Source: Patescibacteria group bacterium
GTDB lineage: Bacteria; Patescibacteria; Microgenomatia; Daviesbacterales; UBA10151
Assembly: GCA_023380995.1 (NCBI GenBank)
Contig: JAMCTD010000043.1
Location: 1 to 12,875, forward strand
Direction of reading: 5' to 3'
DNA: 12,875 bases
Below, in pieces: positions 321 to 12,875 of this stretch. Numbering within the stretch: the stretch's first letter is position 1; every line of letters starts with the position of its first letter. The position numbers were made by a program, and so were the translations under genes. Below the pieces are notes generated by a model that saw only the letters and a list, made by a program, of their open reading frames with translations, was not told the DNA's origin and did not search any database.

Positions 321-1628
321 ATGAGCCTTGAGAATAAAAAACCAATAAATGTAGGTCTTATTGGTATGGGTAATATCGGAACTGGTGTAGTACGATATTT
401 CCAGGATGGCAGGGGCGAACCTTTTAATATACACCTCAAACGGGTAGCAGTAAGAGATCTGTCTAAACCTCGGGCTGTCCAATTTTCTTCTATCACAGAC
501 AACCCTACGGATATTCTTAGGGATCCCTCAATTGACATTATAGTTGAACTTATGGGTGGCATAGATTTAGCCAGGAAATTTACATTGGATGCCATAGATA
601 ATGGGAAAAGCGTAGTAAATGGGAATAAAGCATATTTAGCCAGGCATATGAGAGAATTATTTGAAGCAGCCCGCCAAAGACAAGTTAGTTTAGGATTTGA
701 AGCCTCGGTGGGAGGAGGCATACAAATAATAAATATTTTCCATAGACAAAGAGGTGAAACTATGACAGGATTCTCCGGAATTCTAAATGGGACCGGCAAT
801 TATATTCTCACAAAAATGGAGAGAAAAGATTTTGCAAAAGCCCTTAAAGAAGCTCAAGAAAAAGGATATGCGGAATCTGATCCTAGGGATGATATTGAAG
901 GTTATGACACTAGAAATAAATTAGCTGTTTTAGCATCATTAGCTTTTAATACCCAAATAGACGTTAGCCACATACCATGCACAGGTATAACAGGTGTAAG
1001 TAAAATTGATATAGATTTCGCTAATAAATATGGGGTAGACGAAGGTAAACCTGGATACGCAGTTAAATTACTTGGTATTGCCAAAAGACATGGTACTCAT
1101 GGAGTAGAGCTTCGGGTTCAACCAGTGATGGTGAGTAGGGATAATCTTCTGGCCGCTGTGAGGAACTCCTATAATGCAATAAGAACTGAACCTGAACTTG
1201 CCGGAGCCCAGATACATTATGGGAAGGGTGCTGGAGAAAGTCCAACCACCAGTGCTGTTGTATCGGATATTATCCAAGTAGCAGAAAATATCAGAAAGGG
1301 TGTCCAAGATGAGTATCCGGCATTAGATGGAAAAGTTACCTATGTAAATCCTGATAGGATAAAACAGAGAGGTTATGTTAGGGTTAATCTTAAGCATAAA
1401 CCTGGAAGCGGAGCAGAAACACTTAGAATTTTGGCTGATCATGGTTTAAATGTTGAAGATTCTATACAGAGACGTAGGTTTAGGACTAGAGAAAATGGAG
1501 TTATTTACATACCAGACATAATTACTTTTGAAGCAGCTCCTCAGGGTGATATAGATGCAGCCTTGGAAGAAATCAAAAAATCAGACAGAGTTTATGGTAC
1601 TCCATTCTTTATGAGTATTGCAGCGTAA
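321..1628 (+). CDS. hom: Homoserine dehydrogenase with C-terminal ACT domain
   Basis: This enzyme reduces aspartate-4-semialdehyde to homoserine with NAD(P)H, at the branch to threonine and methionine. The 435-residue length fits the bacterial Hom-ACT form. The Rossmann motif GLIGMGNIGTG lies at residues 12-22 and the catalytic lysine is K103 in NGNKAYLA. The substrate region reads FEASVGGGI (126-134) and GILNGTGNYI (153-162). E185, D196 and K200 line up with the family's E, D and K active-site residues. Residues from about 351 form an ACT domain, known in this family for feedback control by threonine. One oddity is NGTGN where NGTTN or NGTCN is usual. ATG 321 is the first start after an in-frame TAA at 312-314. 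It converges on aspartate kinase with 7 bases between the stops. Confidence 0.95.
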   Translation: MSLENKKPINVGLIGMGNIGTGVVRYFQDGRGEPFNIHLKRVAVRDLSKPRAVQFSSITDNPTDILRDPSIDIIVELMGGIDLARKFTLDAIDNGKSVVNGNKAYLARHMRELFEAARQRQVSLGFEASVGGGIQIINIFHRQRGETMTGFSGILNGTGNYILTKMERKDFAKALKEAQEKGYAESDPRDDIEGYDTRNKLAVLASLAFNTQIDVSHIPCTGITGVSKIDIDFANKYGVDEGKPGYAVKLLGIAKRHGTHGVELRVQPVMVSRDNLLAAVRNSYNAIRTEPELAGAQIHYGKGAGESPTTSAVVSDIIQVAENIRKGVQDEYPALDGKVTYVNPDRIKQRGYVRVNLKHKPGSGAETLRILADHGLNVEDSIQRRRFRTRENGVIYIPDIITFEAAPQGDIDAALEEIKKSDRVYGTPFFMSIAA

Positions 1629-1646
1629 ATTCAAACTATGCTGCAA
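1618..1646. terminator. Inverted repeat across the hom / aspartate kinase stop codons
   Basis: TTGCAGC (1618-1624) and GCTGCAA (1640-1646) form a perfect 7-base stem with a 15-base loop that holds both stop codons. No T-run follows on either side, so it is at best a weak bidirectional terminator. It also partly reflects both proteins ending in Ala-Ala codons. Confidence 0.25.
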
Positions 1647-3087
1647 CTCTAGCAAATACAGAATCATGGATAGATTGGGTTAACACTTTCAATCTGTCTT
1701 CTGAAAGGTCTATTAATATTGAAGCCTCGTATTCACCTGTTGTTAGTTTATATGCATCTGGTTTTCTAAGTTCAGGGAAATTACCATTCATCCCATCGAT
1801 AACCCTTTTTAATATTTGAGGATCTGAAATTCCTCTTCCGATAACTCCAATTACACCAACTCTCATTGCCTTAACAATATCAATATCATTAGCTCTAATT
1901 TCTTCCTTTAACTCCTCTCTAATTGCTTCTCCCAACTCAAATTCTGAACCATCAAATTGAAAAGCTAAATCAAGAGCTAATTTTGAATGAGGCTGGCCAA
2001 TAAAATCGATATCTATTCCTCCTTTAGCTAGGGCACCAGTAATTTTTCTCATAATCCCTGGCCTGTCCATTCCCCAACCTTTCACGGTCAACCTGACCGC
2101 ACTCTTAATCAATGAAACTGCTTTTATTGGATCATCCTCTGATTTCATTTGATTATCTATTAAAGTACCTGGTAAATAAGGTTCAAGAGTACTTTTAACA
2201 AATATAGAAAAAGGTAACCTTTTTGAACTACCAGATCTCACAGCATGATGTACAGCCTTGGGATGGATCACTTTACCACCGTATACTGTAAAAGCTGCTG
2301 CTTCTTCATAGCTCATGTGTGGGATAACATGAGCATTTGGAACAATACTAGGATCAGATGACATAACACCGGCTACATCAGCTTTATATAAATAAACACT
2401 GATTGGATCAAACCAAGGAGTTAAAGTGTGTCCCATTGCTGTAGCAGTCAAATCACTACCACCTCTTGAGAATGTTGTATATTTTCTATTTCTGTCAGCT
2501 CCGTAGTAACCACCCATAACTACCACTTTATTTCCACCTAAATCACGCACTACGCTATCCTTTATTTGCTCTCTTGTGCTGGTTACTAACAGATTTGCAT
2601 TTCCGAAGTTCCCATCTGTAATCAAAACGTCAGCCGCGTCATAATAAACTGCACCGATACCCCTGCCTCTTAAATGAGCTGCAAATACAGGGGCTACCAA
2701 CCTTTCACCTAAAGAGGATATCCAATCTAAATGAGGGGAAGATCCCAAATTAAGAGTTCTCATAGCTTCAATATATTTATGAGTTTGAAAAACTTGTTCT
2801 TGAGCAGCTTTTTCCAAAGGATCAACTTCATGTGATTCCACAGCTTGCTCAATTAATTCAACATGGCGGCCTGCAATCTCCCTCATTAAATCCCAATAGT
2901 CTCTACCTTCTAATCCTTTTTTAATAACACTTTTCAATTGATCAGTTACACCGCTCATTGCCGAAACAATACTAAGAACCGAACCTTCCTTCCTGTGTGC
3001 CTCCGAAACAACCGACGCAGACTGTTCCATTGCCTTGGCATCAGCCATAGAGGTTCCGCCAAATTTTAGAATATCTATAGATCTCAT
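1636..3087 (-). CDS. lysC: Aspartate kinase, monofunctional, with tandem ACT domains
   Basis: This enzyme phosphorylates aspartate to aspartyl-4-phosphate, the first step of the aspartate family pathway. The 483-residue protein starts with the kinase motif KFGGTSM (8-14). SLGERL (125-130), FSRGGSD (206-212), DVAGVMSSDP (237-246) and GGKVIHPKA (270-278) follow, all in the order typical of the family. Two ACT regions follow at about 331-400 and 408-480; in this family they bind lysine or threonine for feedback inhibition, but the effector cannot be read from sequence. It is not fused to homoserine dehydrogenase as in E. coli ThrA. It lies 34 bases downstream of thrC on the same strand, so read-through is likely, but it also has its own extended -10 box at 3101-3109. 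The symbol lysC is a convention; thrA or ask would serve equally. Confidence 0.95.
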   Translation of the reverse strand: MRSIDILKFGGTSMADAKAMEQSASVVSEAHRKEGSVLSIVSAMSGVTDQLKSVIKKGLEGRDYWDLMREIAGRHVELIEQAVESHEVDPLEKAAQEQVFQTHKYIEAMRTLNLGSSPHLDWISSLGERLVAPVFAAHLRGRGIGAVYYDAADVLITDGNFGNANLLVTSTREQIKDSVVRDLGGNKVVVMGGYYGADRNRKYTTFSRGGSDLTATAMGHTLTPWFDPISVYLYKADVAGVMSSDPSIVPNAHVIPHMSYEEAAAFTVYGGKVIHPKAVHHAVRSGSSKRLPFSIFVKSTLEPYLPGTLIDNQMKSEDDPIKAVSLIKSAVRLTVKGWGMDRPGIMRKITGALAKGGIDIDFIGQPHSKLALDLAFQFDGSEFELGEAIREELKEEIRANDIDIVKAMRVGVIGVIGRGISDPQILKRVIDGMNGNFPELRKPDAYKLTTGEYEASILIDLSEDRLKVLTQSIHDSVFARVAA

Positions 3088-3121: not shown

Positions 3122-4579
3122 TTATGGGCTTAATAATTCTCTAATTTTATCTTTTGCTTCTGCAACTTGCTGATCAGTTAACCTAAGACCCTTTTTAGTA
3201 CGCTCCGGCTTGCTTTCAATAGCATAAATCCTCTCTTTAAGCTCTGCTTGTTTTTGAATACCTTCCGGTATATTAGGCTCAATTCCTATTGCCTCTTTAA
3301 CATACAGGGGGAACTTACCAGGATCAGCAGTTTCATAAACCACAGCCAATTTATCCTGAACCCCATTAAGATATTCTTCCAAAGCCTTCCATCCCACTGC
3401 CCCGTGTGGATCCAAAATTACTTTATATTTTGCATATACTTCTTGTATGGTTTGAAGGTGCTGGGGATTACTGACAGCAAAAGAAGCAATATCCCTTCTC
3501 ATAGCATCAAGGTCTGGCATAGACTTAATTACCCCTTCTGTAATAACCTTTCCATTTTCGTCCCTTTCATCCATCATATGCCCTCCATAAAAATCAATCA
3601 GCCTGGCTAAATTGCTGGGGTGGGAAACAATCATAGCTGAGGAAGGTGAAGTTTTTGCAGATTCAACAGCATACCTGCCTGTTTTCAAAAACCTGGGAAA
3701 TTCTTGGTTTTCATTAACCCCGCAAACAATTTTAGAAATTGGCAGCCCCATTTCTTTAGCAATAACTGTGCCCATCATGTCACCAAAATTACCGGAAGGG
3801 ATACTAACAATCATTGGTTCACCATCCCTGGCTACTCTGGAATAAGCAAAAAATGGGTAAACAGCCTGAGGCAAAAGCCTGCCTAAACTAATAGAATTGG
3901 CTGATGTTAACCTATCAGGATCACCAAAAACTTCTCTGGCAAATTGTTTATCTCCCAAAATTTTTTTCACTAAAGCCTGACAAAGATCAAAGTCACCATT
4001 GACCTCAAATGCGTAAACATTACCCTGTAAGGTAGTCATCTGCCTTCTTTGGCCATCGCTCACTGCTTTTTTAGGAAAGAAAACTATATTGTCCACATTT
4101 GGCAAACCATGCAAAGCATCAGCTACAGCTCCACCCGTATCACCTGATGTAGCCACCATTACTGTTCTTTTTAAATCTTCTTCCCCTAAAAAATAATCCA
4201 AAGTCCTACCAAAAAACCTCGCAGCATAATCCTTGAAGGAATAGGTTGGACCAGCAGTAAGCCACATGATGTGAGTCTTACCAACAATATGCTGAATTCT
4301 GGTAGGAATAATGTTTTCATCATAAGCATCTTCAAGCAAGGTTCTTAATCTATCCTGAGGTATTTCTCTGCCTAAAAATGGATTTAAAACTTTAAAAGCA
4401 ATATCTGCATAAGAAGACCCCTCCATGCCTTCAATTTGTTTTAAAGCAAGCTTAGGAATATCCTGCCGGGGCATCATATAAAGCCCGTAATTTGATCCAA
4501 TTCCCGCAAGAAGAGCGGTCTTAAAATTTACCCTCTCATCTTTATTATTGGTGCTGTAATAGGTCATCTGCTCTATCAT
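3122..4579 (-). CDS. thrC: Threonine synthase (PLP-dependent)
   Basis: This enzyme converts O-phosphohomoserine to threonine, using pyridoxal phosphate. The 485-residue length and N-terminal STN...YGLYMMP region match the long E. coli/fungal-type ThrC. The PLP lysine is K116 in TYSFKDYAARFF, and ATSGDTGGAV (143-152) is the phosphate-binding loop. SIPSGNFGD and LDPHGAVGW are further family motifs. Two starts are possible: ATG 4579, 5 bases after the upstream kinase stop, or ATG 4567 (MTYYSTNN), which matches the usual family N-terminus; neither has a good Shine-Dalgarno site. Its substrate must come from a homoserine kinase, and no GHMP-type ThrB is visible. The gene immediately upstream is a small P-loop kinase. 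Confidence 0.95.
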   Translation of the reverse strand: MIEQMTYYSTNNKDERVNFKTALLAGIGSNYGLYMMPRQDIPKLALKQIEGMEGSSYADIAFKVLNPFLGREIPQDRLRTLLEDAYDENIIPTRIQHIVGKTHIMWLTAGPTYSFKDYAARFFGRTLDYFLGEEDLKRTVMVATSGDTGGAVADALHGLPNVDNIVFFPKKAVSDGQRRQMTTLQGNVYAFEVNGDFDLCQALVKKILGDKQFAREVFGDPDRLTSANSISLGRLLPQAVYPFFAYSRVARDGEPMIVSIPSGNFGDMMGTVIAKEMGLPISKIVCGVNENQEFPRFLKTGRYAVESAKTSPSSAMIVSHPSNLARLIDFYGGHMMDERDENGKVITEGVIKSMPDLDAMRRDIASFAVSNPQHLQTIQEVYAKYKVILDPHGAVGWKALEEYLNGVQDKLAVVYETADPGKFPLYVKEAIGIEPNIPEGIQKQAELKERIYAIESKPERTKKGLRLTDQQVAEAKDKIRELLSP

Positions 4580-4584
4580 GGAAT

Positions 4585-5208
4585 TTATTTGTCCAAAGCC
4601 TGTATAAATTTGTCTATAGTAAGATCCCGGTCAGATATTAATCTATAATCAAGCGTAATATCAGCCAGTTTTTCATACCTTTTTGCCCGGAAAGCAAGCA
4701 ATTTTGGATAACACCTGGCTAAAGCCTCCATATCTGTTTCTCCTTTTAGCTTTTTGAAAGAATTCCCCCAAATAACAGGCTTCGGATGCTTAAGATATAT
4801 TTTATACATTTTCTCTCTAAAAGAATCAGGAATCTGAAGATAAATAACCCGGGTGATTTTGGCTAACTTATTCAGGATAGAATTTTGCAGATAAATTAAG
4901 CTTCCTGTGGCATCAATAACAACGTCCTGATTAGGATCCAATTTTTCAACATCAGCTAAAATCTCAGACAGCGATTCTTTTTCAAAAGCCAGATACTGTT
5001 TACTCGTCCTGGGGTATTGGGAATCAAAAGGCTGACCCATCCATTTACCTACATCTTTTATCCCTGAATAACCTAAGGTTTTTAACTCACAGCCCAGCTT
5101 CTTTTCAATTAAATCATCACAGCAAAATCTCTTAAAGCCTTTACTCTTAAATTTTTTGCTCCAATAACTTTTACCGCTGCTTGACATACCAATAAGCGAG
5201 AATTTCAT
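4585..5208 (-). CDS. Shikimate-kinase-like P-loop kinase next to thrC; candidate homoserine kinase
   Basis: This is a 207-residue small-molecule kinase of the shikimate kinase fold. Walker A is GMSSSGKS (7-14). A CDDLIEKKLG segment (30-39) matches the DxD..IE...G region that begins the substrate site in shikimate kinases. The GGG motif of shikimate kinases is replaced by DATGS (99-103). Other striking segments are KWMGQP (55-60), HPKPVIWG (141-148) and an Arg/Lys-rich lid-like helix (174-180). The stop lies 5 bases before thrC, and aspartate kinase follows, so this is the first gene of a threonine operon. Its position and the absence of ThrB suggest that it makes O-phosphohomoserine. That function is inference: the sequence alone supports only a P-loop kinase with an altered acceptor pocket. 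A true shikimate kinase is less likely, as no aromatic-pathway gene is nearby. Confidence 0.85.
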   Translation of the reverse strand: MKFSLIGMSSSGKSYWSKKFKSKGFKRFCCDDLIEKKLGCELKTLGYSGIKDVGKWMGQPFDSQYPRTSKQYLAFEKESLSEILADVEKLDPNQDVVIDATGSLIYLQNSILNKLAKITRVIYLQIPDSFREKMYKIYLKHPKPVIWGNSFKKLKGETDMEALARCYPKLLAFRAKRYEKLADITLDYRLISDRDLTIDKFIQALDK

Positions 5209-7262: not shown

Positions 7263-7272
7263 ACTCTATCTT
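7256..7272. terminator. Perfect short hairpin spanning both convergent stop codons
   Basis: AAGATAG (7256-7262) and CTATCTT (7266-7272) form a 7-base perfect stem with a 3-base loop. The TAG of the glycosidase gene lies in one arm and the TAG of pgi in the other. It is AT-rich with no long T-run, so it could be a weak bidirectional terminator or a consequence of matching 3' ends. Confidence 0.35.
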
Positions 7273-7868
7273 CCTATCTTTTGGGCATATTCTTCCGGAG
7301 TAAACCACTGGGCTTCCGGAACTGATTTATAGTTTTCATTCTTAACCAACTTAGGCTTACCATTTTCTTCCACTACATAATAAGCAGCACCTTGGAGTTT
7401 CTGGAAAGGCACATAATCAGCATGACCTGGCAAAGACACCGGATCAGCCTCGGCAAAATTTACCGGGCTGTCATCAGAAGTAACCAGCCAAACCTTACCG
7501 GTGTTTACTATCAAATGCCCTGTCCCTGAAGAAATAAACACATGATCTCCCACCTTTACCGGTATGGCATAAAAGCTTTCTATCTCATCATCAATTGGAT
7601 TGCCTTCAGTGTCTTTTTTCCTGGTTTGAAGCAAAACTATTCCCTCGCCTGATATTGCCTGATAAGTTTCCTCAATCTGTCCAACATGATAATGCCCATA
7701 AGTTTTAATGTATTCCCCTCCAACTGTGCCTGTTTCCCAAACTGTAATGTTTGTTTTATCTGTGCCTCCCCTGATCATATAGTAATGAACCTCGGGTCCG
7801 GAAGCATCTGGGTTCATAAGCACCTCCCTCATTTTTTCATGAGGTCTGTCTGCAAAAGGTTTGAGCAT
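7266..7868 (-). CDS. pgi: Archaeal-type cupin phosphoglucose isomerase
   Basis: This enzyme interconverts glucose-6-phosphate and fructose-6-phosphate. The 200-residue protein belongs to the metal-dependent cupin GPI family of Euryarchaeota, unrelated to the common 550-residue Pgi. With Met at 7868 as residue 1, the metal ligands are H59 and H61 in GHYH, E67 in EETY and H118 in GTGHLIVNTG. SGEGIVLLQ matches the cupin G-x-G segment. The frame is open back to TTG 7904, but that codon is part of a perfect TTGACA -35 box with a -10 at 7881-7876. ATG 7868 is therefore preferred, with a leaderless mRNA. It is divergent from glucose-6-phosphate dehydrogenase, which uses the same substrate, so the pair probably sets the glycolysis/pentose-phosphate split. 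Confidence 0.9.
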   Translation of the reverse strand: MLKPFADRPHEKMREVLMNPDASGPEVHYYMIRGGTDKTNITVWETGTVGGEYIKTYGHYHVGQIEETYQAISGEGIVLLQTRKKDTEGNPIDDEIESFYAIPVKVGDHVFISSGTGHLIVNTGKVWLVTSDDSPVNFAEADPVSLPGHADYVPFQKLQGAAYYVVEENGKPKLVKNENYKSVPEAQWFTPEEYAQKIGR

Positions 7869-7875
7869 ATTTTTT

Positions 7876-7904
7876 AGTATCCCTTCTTTACTTTTTATTG
7901 TCAA
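7876..7904 (-). promoter_or_regulatory. Consensus promoter of pgi
   Basis: On the minus strand TTGACA (7904-7899) and GATACT (7881-7876) are spaced by exactly 17 bases. The -10 ends 7 bases before ATG 7868, so transcription should begin at or next to the start codon. This decides against a TTG start at 7904, which would lie within the -35 box. Confidence 0.6.
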
Positions 7905-7913
7905 TGATCCAAA

Positions 7914-9341
7914 ATGTACCCTATGGAAGATTATGCCTTAATTATCCTTGGTATTACCAGTAATTTGGCTCAAATAAAGCTGATCCCCGTTCTATATGAC
8001 ATGGCAGAAAAAGGTTTATTACCTGGGAATATGCCCATTATTGGCATTGCCAGAAAACCAATGACCAATAAAGAATTCCAGGATTATATTAAAAATATAC
8101 TCCACCTGGAAAACATCCACCACCGCCACGAAATTAAGGAAGAGGTTTTTCAAAAACTTGTTAGAAAATTACACTATATTTCCGGCAGCATCAATGAACC
8201 AGGGCTATACCGGGAACTAAGAAAATATAAGGGAAACCGTATTTATTATTTGGCAACCTACCCCAGCCTTTATCAAGCAATATTTGAGAATTTACAGAAA
8301 AACAACTTAAACAAACAAAACAACGGCTGGGTTAGACTCATGATTGAAAAACCAATTGGTAACGACCTTGAGTCTGCCAGACAATTAAATCAACTCCTTT
8401 TAAAATATTTTTCCGAGGATCAAATTTACAGGCTTGATCATTATTTGGGTAAAGAAACTTTGCAAAATATTTTAACCTTCCGCTTTGCTAACGGCATTTT
8501 TGAACCGATTATTAATAAAGATGATATTGACCATATCCAAATTACAGCTTCAGAAAGCTTCGGCATAGGCAAACGCGGGGGATATTATGATCAAGTTGGA
8601 GCCTTAAAAGATGTCGGGCAAAACCACCAGCTGCAAATGCTGGCCTTTGCCACTATGGACGCGCCAACTGAATTTACCAATGAAGCAGTTACCAAAGAAC
8701 GCCTTAAAATCCTAAGCAATTTGGTACCTATACCGGAAAAAGTAGTTTATGGGCAATATGAAGGGTATCAAAAAGAAGAAAATGTGAGCCCGGATTCCAC
8801 TGCAGACACATTTTATGCCCTTAAAACTTTTATTAACAATGAGCGCTTCAAAGATGTACCGATTTATATCAGGGCAGGCAAAAAGTTAAAACAAACTGCC
8901 ACAGAAATATCCATAGTTTTTAAAAACCCGGTTAACAGATTATTTAAAAACTTAAACCTGGGAGAAGAACCAAATGTACTAATTTATAGAATTCAGCCAA
9001 ATGAAGGAATAGTTTTTAGAATTTTAACTAAAGTGCCGGGGTACGAAATTAAGCTTGAACCGGAATACATGCAATACTGCTACAGGATGGATCCTCACAG
9101 CCACTATATACCTGACCCTTATGAAAGACTGCTGGTTGATACCATGAGGGGTGATCAAACATTTTTCAATGACGCAACAGAAGTAGAAGCCCAATGGGCA
9201 TTTGTTGATCCCTTAATTGCTGCTAAAAAGAAAGCTTATCCTTATAAACCAGGATCCTGGGGACCCAAAGAGGCAGATAAATTAATCCAGGCAGATGGCA
9301 GGAACTGGCTTGAGCCCTCAATGGAATTTTGCAGAATTTGA
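7914..9341 (+). CDS. zwf: Glucose-6-phosphate 1-dehydrogenase
   Basis: This enzyme oxidises glucose-6-phosphate to 6-phosphogluconolactone, the entry to the oxidative pentose-phosphate pathway. The 475 residues fit the family. EKPIG (145-149), RLDHYLGKE (173-181) and RGGYYDQVGALKDVGQNH (221-238) hold the substrate lysine, the Asp-His pair D175/H176 and the catalytic base H238. The C-terminal PYKPGSWGP is typical. The N-terminal dinucleotide loop is unusual: GITSNLAQIKL (13-23) where G.TGDLAkRKL is normal, so the GD pair and the Arg linked to NADP preference are changed. ATG 7914 and ATG 7923 are both possible starts, with no Shine-Dalgarno site. No clear promoter was found, and it must overlap the pgi promoter region. 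The last 24 bases overlap the 3' end of the convergent zinc-ribbon gene. Confidence 0.95.
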   Translation: MYPMEDYALIILGITSNLAQIKLIPVLYDMAEKGLLPGNMPIIGIARKPMTNKEFQDYIKNILHLENIHHRHEIKEEVFQKLVRKLHYISGSINEPGLYRELRKYKGNRIYYLATYPSLYQAIFENLQKNNLNKQNNGWVRLMIEKPIGNDLESARQLNQLLLKYFSEDQIYRLDHYLGKETLQNILTFRFANGIFEPIINKDDIDHIQITASESFGIGKRGGYYDQVGALKDVGQNHQLQMLAFATMDAPTEFTNEAVTKERLKILSNLVPIPEKVVYGQYEGYQKEENVSPDSTADTFYALKTFINNERFKDVPIYIRAGKKLKQTATEISIVFKNPVNRLFKNLNLGEEPNVLIYRIQPNEGIVFRILTKVPGYEIKLEPEYMQYCYRMDPHSHYIPDPYERLLVDTMRGDQTFFNDATEVEAQWAFVDPLIAAKKKAYPYKPGSWGPKEADKLIQADGRNWLEPSMEFCRI

Positions 9342-9659
9342 TTTTTTAAAACATTCTTTGCAAAAATGGGTTTCCACTAATTTTTTACCCTCTTTAGTCC
9401 AAATATGAAAGGATTTAAACATATTCCGTCCACACTTATCACAAATAAAAATCTGATAAGTCCCACCCTTAAAACCAAATTTCTTTTGGCATTTATTACA
9501 AAAGTGAATGGGGGTTTTGAAGCCTCCGTAATTTAAGTAGTGATGCCAGGCTTTATGCATATATTTTTGGCAATCTGCACATCTAAACCCCCTATATTCA
9601 GGCTGAAATTTAATATTCCAGGTTTTAACTATTGTTAGTAAAGTTTTGTTATTTTCCAT
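9318..9659 (-). CDS. Zinc-ribbon protein with a tandem internal duplication, 113 aa
   Basis: I do not recognise a named family. Two repeats, about residues 25-61 and 71-107, each carry C-x2-C-x23-C-x2-C. The cysteines are C27, C30, C54, C57 and then C73, C76, C100, C103. Shared residues beyond the cysteines include an M...K...H after the first pair and HFC before the second. Each repeat can bind one zinc ion, so the protein is probably a two-module nucleic-acid or protein binder, but its target is unknown. An N-terminal segment (1-24) has no clear motif. ATG 9659 follows a perfect TATAAT by 10 bases. The 3' end overlaps the zwf coding end by 24 bases in convergent orientation. Confidence 0.75.
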   Translation of the reverse strand: MENNKTLLTIVKTWNIKFQPEYRGFRCADCQKYMHKAWHHYLNYGGFKTPIHFCNKCQKKFGFKGGTYQIFICDKCGRNMFKSFHIWTKEGKKLVETHFCKECFKKSNSAKFH

Positions 9660-11312: not shown

Positions 11313-11418
11313 TGATAGGTACAGAACTTTTAAATCTCATGAATTAGCTCAAGCTGATTTAACATTAGAGTCTTTAGAGGAAAAAGATAAAGTCTTAAAG
11401 TTCCTAAATTTAAGTTAA
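11284..11418 (+). other. Short open frame, 44 codons, possible 3' end of a lost gene
   Basis: An ATG at 11284 opens a plus-strand frame to TAA 11416-11418. Its first nine or so codons are antisense to the gnd remnant. The rest, from about 11313, encodes a hydrophilic Leu/Glu/Lys-rich stretch (SHELAQADLTLESLEEKDKV) that looks like a genuine protein C-terminus. I do not recognise the family. Its stop overlaps the stop of the complete gnd gene within GTTAAC (11414-11419). It is probably the tail of a degraded gene joined to gnd debris, but a real small gene cannot be excluded. Confidence 0.3.
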
Positions 11419-12338
11419 CTCTTCTTAACAGAATGGTGACCAAACTGACCTCTAAGGGCCGACACAATTTTATTACGGAAACCTGCAGGAGAATTCTCTG
11501 GATCTTTTTTGGATTCTACTCTAACTTTAAATGCATCCTGAATAGCTGGTACATCAATTCCAAGATTCTTCGCTGTTTGAATAGTCCATTCTCCCTCACC
11601 GGTATGTCCTATTATAGAAGATATATCTGTTAAATTTGGATCTTGCAATAACGCTTGCTCAGTCCAATCAATTAATCTAGAAGCAATAACCGTATTATGT
11701 CTATAAGCTGTTGCCACCGTGGCTAAATTAAGTTGAAAAGGGCCATTTTTTAAAACAGCAAATCCTTCTCCTATAGCTTCCATAAAAGCATATTCAATTC
11801 CATTGTGAACCATCTTTACAAAATGACCCGCACCTACGGGCCCAACACGGGCATAAGAATCTGGAGCAGCAACAATTTTAGCCAACCATTCTATTCTTTG
11901 ATAATCTTGCTCTGATCCTCCAATCATTAAAGCAGCACCATTTTTTGCTCCGGAAGGCCCTCCTGATACACCAAAATCCATAAAATTCAAACCTAATGCA
12001 TCCATTTGCTTTGCTCTTCTGATAGAGTCTTCATAATGAGAATTCCCTCCCTCAATAATTAAATCGCCTCTTGTAAGCTTCTTAGAAAATACCTCTAGGG
12101 TTTGATCAATAGGTTCTCCGTGAGGCAACATAAGCCAAAGGATACGAGGGGGTTGTAAGCTATCAATCACTGCATTAAGATCCTTAGCAGGTTGCGCACC
12201 AATTGAAGCTATTTTAGCAGTTGCTTCTGATGAAGCATCCCAGCCCACTACACGAACTCCATGTTCAACTAGCCTTGTAACCATATTAAAACCCATTTTT
12301 CCTAAACCAATATATCCTATTTCTCTTTGTTCAAGCAT
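11415..12338 (-). CDS. gnd: 6-phosphogluconate dehydrogenase, short form (complete copy)
   Basis: This enzyme oxidatively decarboxylates 6-phosphogluconate to ribulose-5-phosphate. The 307-residue length matches the short bacterial/archaeal form rather than the 470-residue E. coli form. The Rossmann motif is IGLGKMG (10-16), and D34 at the end of the second strand suggests preference for NAD over NADP. EGGNSHY (96-102) and GVSGGPSGA (123-131) are substrate motifs. K175, H178, N179 and E182 in VKMVHNGIE are the catalytic lysine and its partners. GEGEWT and the C-terminal RGQFGHHS complete the site. ATG 12338 follows TGGTATAAT by 6 bases, so the mRNA is predicted to be leaderless. A second copy lies 49 bases upstream on the same strand. 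Confidence 0.95.
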   Translation of the reverse strand: MLEQREIGYIGLGKMGFNMVTRLVEHGVRVVGWDASSEATAKIASIGAQPAKDLNAVIDSLQPPRILWLMLPHGEPIDQTLEVFSKKLTRGDLIIEGGNSHYEDSIRRAKQMDALGLNFMDFGVSGGPSGAKNGAALMIGGSEQDYQRIEWLAKIVAAPDSYARVGPVGAGHFVKMVHNGIEYAFMEAIGEGFAVLKNGPFQLNLATVATAYRHNTVIASRLIDWTEQALLQDPNLTDISSIIGHTGEGEWTIQTAKNLGIDVPAIQDAFKVRVESKKDPENSPAGFRNKIVSALRGQFGHHSVKKS

Positions 12339-12387: not shown

Positions 12388-12875
12388 TTAGCTTTTCTTT
12401 ACAGGGTGTCTGCCAAATTGCCACCTCATGGCAGCTACTATTTTATTCCTAAAACCATTTGGAGAGTCGACCTTATCCTGATCAGAATTATCCCTAACCG
12501 CAACAGATGCTTCTATCACAGGCACATCTACTCCCAAGGATTTGGCATGTTCTACTGTCCAATGAGCTTCTCCCTTAGTTTTCCCTGCTCCCCCTCCTGA
12601 TCCTATAACAGAGGAAATATTTGAAAGATCAGGATCATTTTTTAGTTCAGCTAATGTCCAACCCACTAATCTTGATTCTATAATAGATCCAGTGTTATAA
12701 ATCCTGAAAACTTCCTGTAAATCATAAGGAAATTCTGAGTTTTTTAAAATCGCTGCCCCTTCTCCAATTGCCTCCATCATCCCATATTCAATTCCATTGT
12801 GAATGGTTTTGGCAAAATGTCCGCTTCCTACCGAGCCTAAATGGGCATAAGCTTCTGGTTGAGCAGCTGCCTTAA
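12388..12875 (-). CDS. 6-phosphogluconate dehydrogenase paralogue, 5' end outside the window
   Basis: The frame is open from the right edge to TAA at 12390-12388, giving about 161 C-terminal residues. It includes GSGHFAKTIHNGIEY, where the catalytic Lys, His, Asn and Glu of the family are kept although VKMV has become AKTI. A Gly-rich insert of about six residues (SGGGAGKTKGE) lies in the loop that is GHTGEGEW in the neighbouring copy, close to the substrate site. The C-terminus MRWQFGRHPVKKS keeps the Arg and His used by the family to bind substrate across the dimer. It is clearly related to, but well diverged from, the complete copy downstream, so this is an old duplication. It could be a second Gnd with a different cofactor or a related beta-hydroxyacid dehydrogenase. 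Confidence 0.9.
   Translation of the reverse strand, partial: KAAAQPEAYAHLGSVGSGHFAKTIHNGIEYGMMEAIGEGAAILKNSEFPYDLQEVFRIYNTGSIIESRLVGWTLAELKNDPDLSNISSVIGSGGGAGKTKGEAHWTVEHAKSLGVDVPVIEASVAVRDNSDQDKVDSPNGFRNKIVAAMRWQFGRHPVKKS

Follow-up and report, generated by a model that had tools for sequence, protein, structure and literature searches.

In the established route from aspartate to threonine, the products of ask, hom, asd and thrC account for every step except that of homoserine kinase. It is a known gap that some genomes encode a threonine synthase without any recognised homoserine kinase. In excerpts of the GapMind report, ThrB was of low confidence in 29 of 148 organisms able to grow in the absence of amino acids, and 15 of these 29 have a protein of the TIGR02535 family (PMC7311316). 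This family is related to phosphoglycerate mutase and has been proposed as a homoserine phosphotransferase; according to the same excerpts, the protein of B. thetaiotaomicron matters for growth without threonine and does not rescue E. coli thrB (PMC7311316). A homoserine kinase resembling shikimate kinase is already a known kind of enzyme, because DvMF_0971 of Desulfovibrio has been proven by complementation. Originally annotated as a shikimate kinase, DvMF_0971 complements an E. coli thrB mutant, and its own mutants are rescued by threonine (excerpts of Price et al., PMC5764234). The same authors stated there that novel homoserine kinases are still to be discovered (PMC5764234). Judging from the name of the model, DvMF_0971 probably belongs to NF040667 (hom_kin_desulfo), and its acceptor pocket would then carry the pattern of the members of that model described below.

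The window analysed here is the whole contig of 12,875 nucleotides, and its threonine genes are listed in Table 1. The gene under study, called K, runs in the same direction as thrC and ask, with 5 bases between K and thrC and 34 between thrC and ask. The hom gene is convergent with ask, 7 bases away. The ORF coordinates agree with the original prediction, which had described a 207-aa GMSSSGKS protein just before thrC, with ask in the same set and hom opposite. Our best reading is that K represents a separate family of putative homoserine kinases with the shikimate-kinase fold. For the Patescibacterial members linked to thrC, the K of the window included, we put the probability that they are homoserine kinases at about 85%.

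Table 1. Threonine genes of the window and motifs of the K protein.
Feature	Position	Strand	Remarks
K, candidate homoserine kinase, shikimate-kinase-like P-loop protein, 207 aa	4585..5208	-	First gene of the K-thrC-ask set
thrC, threonine synthase (Thr_synth_N and PALP)	3122..4579	-	TIGR00260, 200.9 bits (cut-off 167.1)
ask, aspartate kinase	1636..3087	-	TIGR00657, 252 bits (cut-off 208.7)
hom, homoserine dehydrogenase	321..1628	+	NF004976, 391.6 bits (cut-off 205)
Walker A (P-loop) GMSSSGKS, K residues 7-14	5167..5190	-	Read from the sequence
QYLAFE, K residues 71-76	4981..4998	-	Aligned with FRxxE of shikimate kinase; Leu73 replaces the substrate Arg, Glu76 kept
DATGS, K residues 99-103	4900..4914	-	Aligned with the GGG region of shikimate kinase
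HPKPVIWG, K residues 141-148	4765..4788	-	Lid-like segment, aligned with the RP motif of shikimate kinase

K falls outside the curated families. A Pfam scan gave no family over its gathering score and only AAA_33 at E 0.14. The sole NCBIfam match at E<=1 was NF040667, with a score of 28.3 bits where 197 are required and the best stretch over residues 4-45. TIGR00191 (ThrB, a GHMP kinase) and TIGR00938 (ThrB2) gave no match at E<=1, and an identity of K as ThrB or ThrB2 was rejected on this ground; these enzymes share with K the proposed reaction and the position in the pathway, but they are different protein families. The TIGR02535 protein has been proposed for the same gap and, unlike K, is not a P-loop kinase. 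Matches of K in the PDB were weak, with shikimate kinases among them. The Walker A motif and a core found in common by profile comparison place K in the shikimate kinase-like P-loop superfamily.

A homology search returned 306 homologues of K at E<=1e-3. Among the 120 matches listed of these 306, the names given to relatives are few, either ‘hypothetical protein’ or ‘shikimate kinase’. An alignment of 59 homologues, drawn from the same 120, is invariant in 20 columns, among them W56, P60, T101-G102-S103, K143-P144, W147 and R174. The segments KWMGQP (residues 55-60) and HPKPVIWG had been called unusual in the original prediction; this holds in comparison with shikimate kinase but not within the K family, where both are hallmarks. 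A scan limited to a single genome from each species found 184 encoded K relatives, and the best 80 of them served as the set of loci (L numbers; genomes carry G numbers). By title, many of these 80 are Patescibacteria, followed by deltaproteobacteria, SAR324, Woesearchaeota, Nitrospirota, Chloroflexi, Acidobacteria and a small number of other groups. Measured along the tree, the K proteins closest to that of the window belong to Daviesbacteria (L002) and Levybacteria (L001). L002 has the K-thrC-ask order of the window, and the two ThrC proteins share 75% identity. The window itself probably comes from a bacterium of the Microgenomates type. A description of the K family was not found in the open-licence literature searched by title or abstract start.

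The neighbourhood of K was analysed in 78 of the 80 loci, leaving out L062 and L065, for which no K ORF was picked. A thrC gene matching TIGR00260 directly adjoins K in 23 of the 78, on the same strand in 21 and on the opposite strand in two (L007, L014). K also adjoins thrC in one further genome (G069), with an overlap of 4 bases. A thrC, ask/hom or asd cluster gene lies no more than four genes from K in 26 of the 78 loci, a count that includes one false case: the apparent thrC neighbour in L021 was rejected as a diaminopropionate ammonia-lyase and taken out of the thrC count. In L070, the ORF taken as the centre was not K, and no thr gene was found at this locus. The link with thrC is concentrated in Patescibacteria, where thrC is the direct neighbour of K in 19 of 24 loci and asd in two more (L003, L059), leaving L001, L015 and L020 with neither directly beside K. 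These 24 loci were assigned by title except for L011, titled ‘archaeon’, which was counted among them because its K falls among the Patescibacterial K. Outside Patescibacteria, thrC was found beside K in 4 of 54 loci (L025, L067, L077, L080); L025 is titled Spirochaetia, and its K is closest in the tree to that of a Tagabacteria member.

Four loci carry the full set. In L005, L006, L009 and L011, the genes ask, hom, asd, K and thrC follow one another in that order with small gaps or overlaps, ask and hom being joined in one ORF in L005. All four neighbours of K were confirmed by NCBIfam in L006 and by BLAST clusters in the other three loci. In three Roizmanbacteria loci (L008, L010, L012), K-thrC is preceded by a gene of cluster 11, a threonyl-tRNA synthetase as judged by the L008 member.

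The original prediction had also noted that neither ThrB nor ThrB2 was visible. This means little in the 12.9-kb contig itself, so the genomes of relatives were used instead, and there it was borne out. Profile searches covered 50 of the 80 K genomes, namely the Patescibacterial loci by title and a spread of others. Over the respective cut-offs, thrC was found in 42, ThrB in one, ThrB2 in none, TIGR02535 (cut-off 446 bits) in 10 and aroC in 34; single absences weigh little here because many of the records are drafts whose completeness is not given. The one genome with ThrB is from Woesearchaeota (G044) and has no thrC match, so that none of the 42 K genomes with thrC has ThrB or ThrB2 over cut-off. 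K thus co-occurs with thrC in genomes without either enzyme, as had been expected. All 14 control genomes have thrC over cut-off, 11 have ThrB and one has ThrB2. TIGR02535 is over cut-off in 9 of the 42 K genomes with thrC, and the remaining 33 have no other homoserine kinase over cut-off. Six of these 33 have weaker TIGR02535 matches (54-287 bits overall): G004 with 287 bits, G036 with 227, G037 with 225, G048 with 221, G031 with 127 and G049 with 55. All 10 genomes with TIGR02535 over cut-off are deltaproteobacterial, Nitrospirota or Anaerolineae by title, and none is among the 24 Patescibacterial K genomes searched.

Whole-phylum samples were also examined. In 286 Patescibacteria (minimum completeness 60; K threshold 100 bits), K was found in five and thrC over cut-off in 10, and ThrB passed its cut-off in none. 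Absence of ThrB is the rule in this sample and is not telling by itself in this phylum. The association of K with thrC was seen as thrC in 4 of the 5 genomes with K versus 6 of the 281 without. With the centre genome dropped, the counts are 3 of 4 versus 6 of 281 (Fisher p=9e-5), and with G025, already among the loci, dropped as well, 2 of 3 genomes with K have thrC (p=0.002). One sampled genome (G286) has a distant K (146 bits) and no thrC. In six of the 10 genomes with thrC, K (no match over 31 bits) and ThrB over cut-off are both missing; something else must therefore serve there, which may be a further homoserine kinase or another source of phosphohomoserine. In four of these six (G239, G099, G115 and G258; L113-L116), the ORFs in a stretch of 12-13 kb near thrC gave no match to the K, HSK or AroK profiles; nine ORFs scanned from them have RNase H, NYN, WhiB, ribosomal S9 or RNase PH-type domains or belong to no family. 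In 198 Desulfobacterota (minimum completeness 80), K was found in four, one being the centre genome, and ThrB over cut-off in five. NF040667 exceeded 140 bits in 35 of the 198 (6 over cut-off), and none of the four K genomes is among the 35, although four cases decide nothing.

The acceptor site of K was compared with those of the two related enzymes. By hhalign, K matched the AroK profile with a probability of 99.0 over 187 columns and the HSK-type profile with 98.4 over 182 columns. Residues were counted in 76 K rows (75 loci and the window, L020, L059 and L070 having also been dropped), 12 HSK-type rows and 18 AroK rows. The HSK-type rows are six over the NF040667 cut-off and six below it, with L088, a K, left out. 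Ten AroK regions were fetched, and L105 was not recovered. The mapping rests on a remote alignment, with residue numbers of the M. tuberculosis shikimate kinase transferred by motif. In that enzyme, we take Asp34 to be the catalytic base and GGG to be residues 79-81. Its Arg58 and Arg136 are important in shikimate binding and its Lys15 lies in the P-loop (excerpts of PMC3646032).

Three columns set K apart from AroK and join it to the six NF040667 members over cut-off. At the column of Arg58 (Leu73 in K), Leu is found in 73 of 76 K rows; at the third GGG column (Ser103), Ser is found in 76 of 76; three columns on (Tyr106), Tyr is found in 71 of 76. All three residues are present in the six NF040667 members and in none of the 18 AroK rows. 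Conversely, Arg at column 73 and Gly at columns 101 and 103 occur in none of the 76 K rows, and all three occur in every AroK row. The replacement of the shikimate GGG by DATGS was noted in the original prediction, and DATGS does fall at the GGG region of the alignment; T-G-S stands for GGG in 76 of 76 K rows, with G102-S103 in all of them. The residues Asp31 (for Asp34), Glu76 and Arg174 (for Arg136) are kept in 76 of 76. A pattern derived here and not curated, L-x-x-E with G-S-V-[IV]-Y, was matched by K, which reads LAFE and GSLIY in the window. The six NF040667 relatives below cut-off all have the Ser and the Tyr, with Leu (three), Arg (two) or Cys (one) at column 73. This Leu/Ser/Tyr pattern is as would be expected if K bound the same acceptor as NF040667, yet it is a correlation, and it is shared by the Woesearchaeal K, whose four checked genomes have no thrC match.

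K and NF040667 are therefore alike in some respects and different in others. Both are P-loop kinases of the shikimate-kinase type with the same proposed reaction. The NF040667 members over cut-off have Leu for Arg58, GGS for GGG, a Tyr after it, and the retained Asp, Glu and Arg. K, in contrast, is 207 aa long against the 163 positions of the model, lies far below its cut-off, and is set apart by W56-x-x-x-P60, D-T-T-G-S, KPVIWG and, in 23 of 78 loci, an adjoining thrC. In a tree, the 76 K rows formed one group apart from the HSK-type and AroK rows. A second tree, built from an alignment without the three signature columns, included 28 of the 76 K rows and was given gluconate kinases and cytidylate kinases as outgroups. 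K and HSK-type again formed separate groups; a clade of K and HSK against AroK was not rejected (AU p=0.24), in a tree where the outgroup was not one group and long branches meet.

For the reaction and the role of each residue, we infer the following. With ATP and Mg, K would transfer a phosphate to the side-chain hydroxyl of L-homoserine, and the product, O-phosphohomoserine, would be converted to threonine by the neighbouring ThrC. Activation of that hydroxyl would fall to Asp31, handling of the phosphates to Lys13 and Lys143, and holding of the homoserine carboxylate to Arg174. The changed pocket, with Leu73 for Arg58 and T-G-S followed by Tyr for GGG, would fit a smaller amino-acid substrate.

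Could K instead be a divergent shikimate kinase, co-transcribed with thrC by chance? The two share the superfamily, the Walker A motif and the Asp, Glu and Arg columns, the hhalign probability is slightly higher for AroK than for the HSK-type profile, and both the weak PDB matches and the names of some relatives point the same way. Against this stand the missing GGG and Arg58-equivalent, and the genomes themselves. No aroC match was found in 16 of the 50 K genomes, 9 of which are among the 33 that have thrC and no TIGR02535 over cut-off (G001, G002, G005, G013, G014, G017, G021, G022, G023), and K is therefore hardly a shikimate kinase. A separate AroK-like gene with GGG and Arg58-type residues lies within about 2 kb of aroC in 7 of the first 10 K genomes (G003, G004, G006-G010), the other three (G001, G002, G005) having no aroC match. 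In G007 and G009, this aroK is on the contig of K, about 9 and 16 kb away. The 80 loci were also searched by tblastn (threshold 1e-8) with AroA, AroK, AroL, parts of AroB and the ORFs surrounding seven aroK genes of Patescibacteria, and 78 of them gave no match. The two exceptions, which count in favour of a shikimate kinase, are L007, with an aroB-like gene and another aro-operon gene 6-8 kb from K, and L064, where an ORF 4.4 kb from K is related to one from the aroK regions. An association of the relatives mainly with aromatic genes, which would have spoken against the original prediction, was thus not seen; the neighbours in Patescibacteria are threonine genes, and elsewhere thrC is beside K in the few loci given above. 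With GGG and the Arg58-equivalent absent, and with K present in genomes that lack an aroC match or have a separate AroK-like gene near aroC, identity with AroK or AroL was rejected, and we regard a shikimate kinase paired with thrC by chance as very improbable.

Another possibility is that K phosphorylates some other small hydroxyl compound, such as threonine or an amino acid akin to it, or acts in regulation, while an unrecognised enzyme makes O-phosphohomoserine. The sampled Patescibacteria that have thrC and lack both K and ThrB over cut-off are consistent with this, as are the Woesearchaeota, in which none of four checked K genomes has a thrC match although the pocket residues are kept; acceptor specificity, moreover, is not readable from sequence alone. 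The ask-hom-asd-K-thrC sets argue the other way, since they hold every other step from aspartate and leave K at the gap of homoserine kinase, as does the agreement of the acceptor site with NF040667, and we consider another substrate unlikely. A narrower function is harder to set aside: only the Patescibacterial and thrC-linked K might be homoserine kinases, with those of deltaproteobacteria, Nitrospirota and Woesearchaeota doing something else. The scarcity of adjoining thrC outside Patescibacteria, the confinement of TIGR02535 to deltaproteobacterial, Nitrospirota and Anaerolineae genomes and the Woesearchaeota without thrC all favour such a division. Nearly the same pocket residues across the family speak against it, as do the SAR324 genomes (G031, G036, G048, G049), G037, two of Chloroflexi (G040, G043) and G046, which carry thrC but, apart from K, nothing that passes the cut-off of a homoserine kinase model. 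We give this division a little under an even chance. The proposal that K fills the missing step is well supported for the Patescibacterial branch by gap position, co-occurrence and pocket; as an idea it has a proven precedent in DvMF_0971, and K is only remotely similar to NF040667 and to shikimate kinase.

Patescibacteria are generally regarded as poor in biosynthesis. If K is a homoserine kinase, some of them make their own threonine, proteins now named hypothetical or shikimate kinase gain a function, and it becomes possible to test a residue signature that marks homoserine kinases among proteins of the shikimate-kinase fold. A wider proposal can be offered tentatively, as one that we hold to be rather less probable than its converse. 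K would be a homoserine kinase family spanning Patescibacteria, SAR324, Chloroflexi, Acidobacteria, deltaproteobacteria and Nitrospirota, whose acceptor-site changes arose independently of the Desulfovibrio type. The shikimate-kinase fold would then have been turned to homoserine on two or more occasions through identical substitutions, and part of the gap of threonine synthase without homoserine kinase would be closed in unrelated phyla.

Several minor observations were made. Long thrC-like frames (618-650 aa) over the TIGR00260 cut-off were found at G025:C4:75615-76559, G069:C40:290-1261, G127:C16:12854-13798 and G149:C11:11456-12412; they are additional to the K-linked thrC in G025 and G069 and may not be threonine synthases. 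In SAR324-type loci such as L034, L037 and L055, the gene order is conserved: upstream of K lies a gene for a protein of about 135-146 aa, downstream a membrane-protein-like gene (by reading), and no link to threonine is evident. In the Woesearchaeota, a ferredoxin-reductase-like gene follows K (from the reading of one sequence), and two K genes stand in tandem at L074:8001-9556. Close to the threonine genes, the window encodes a cupin-type glucose-6-phosphate isomerase, a glucose-6-phosphate dehydrogenase-like ORF (by reading) and a 6-phosphogluconate dehydrogenase (7266-9341 and 11415-12338). A second 6PGD-like frame (12388-12875), open to the contig end, resembles the end of 11415-12338 as a tandem copy. 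Positions 9318-9659 encode a 113-aa protein with many CxxC pairs, zinc-ribbon-like by eye, with a sub-threshold Pfam match to C1_1 (21.8 bits).
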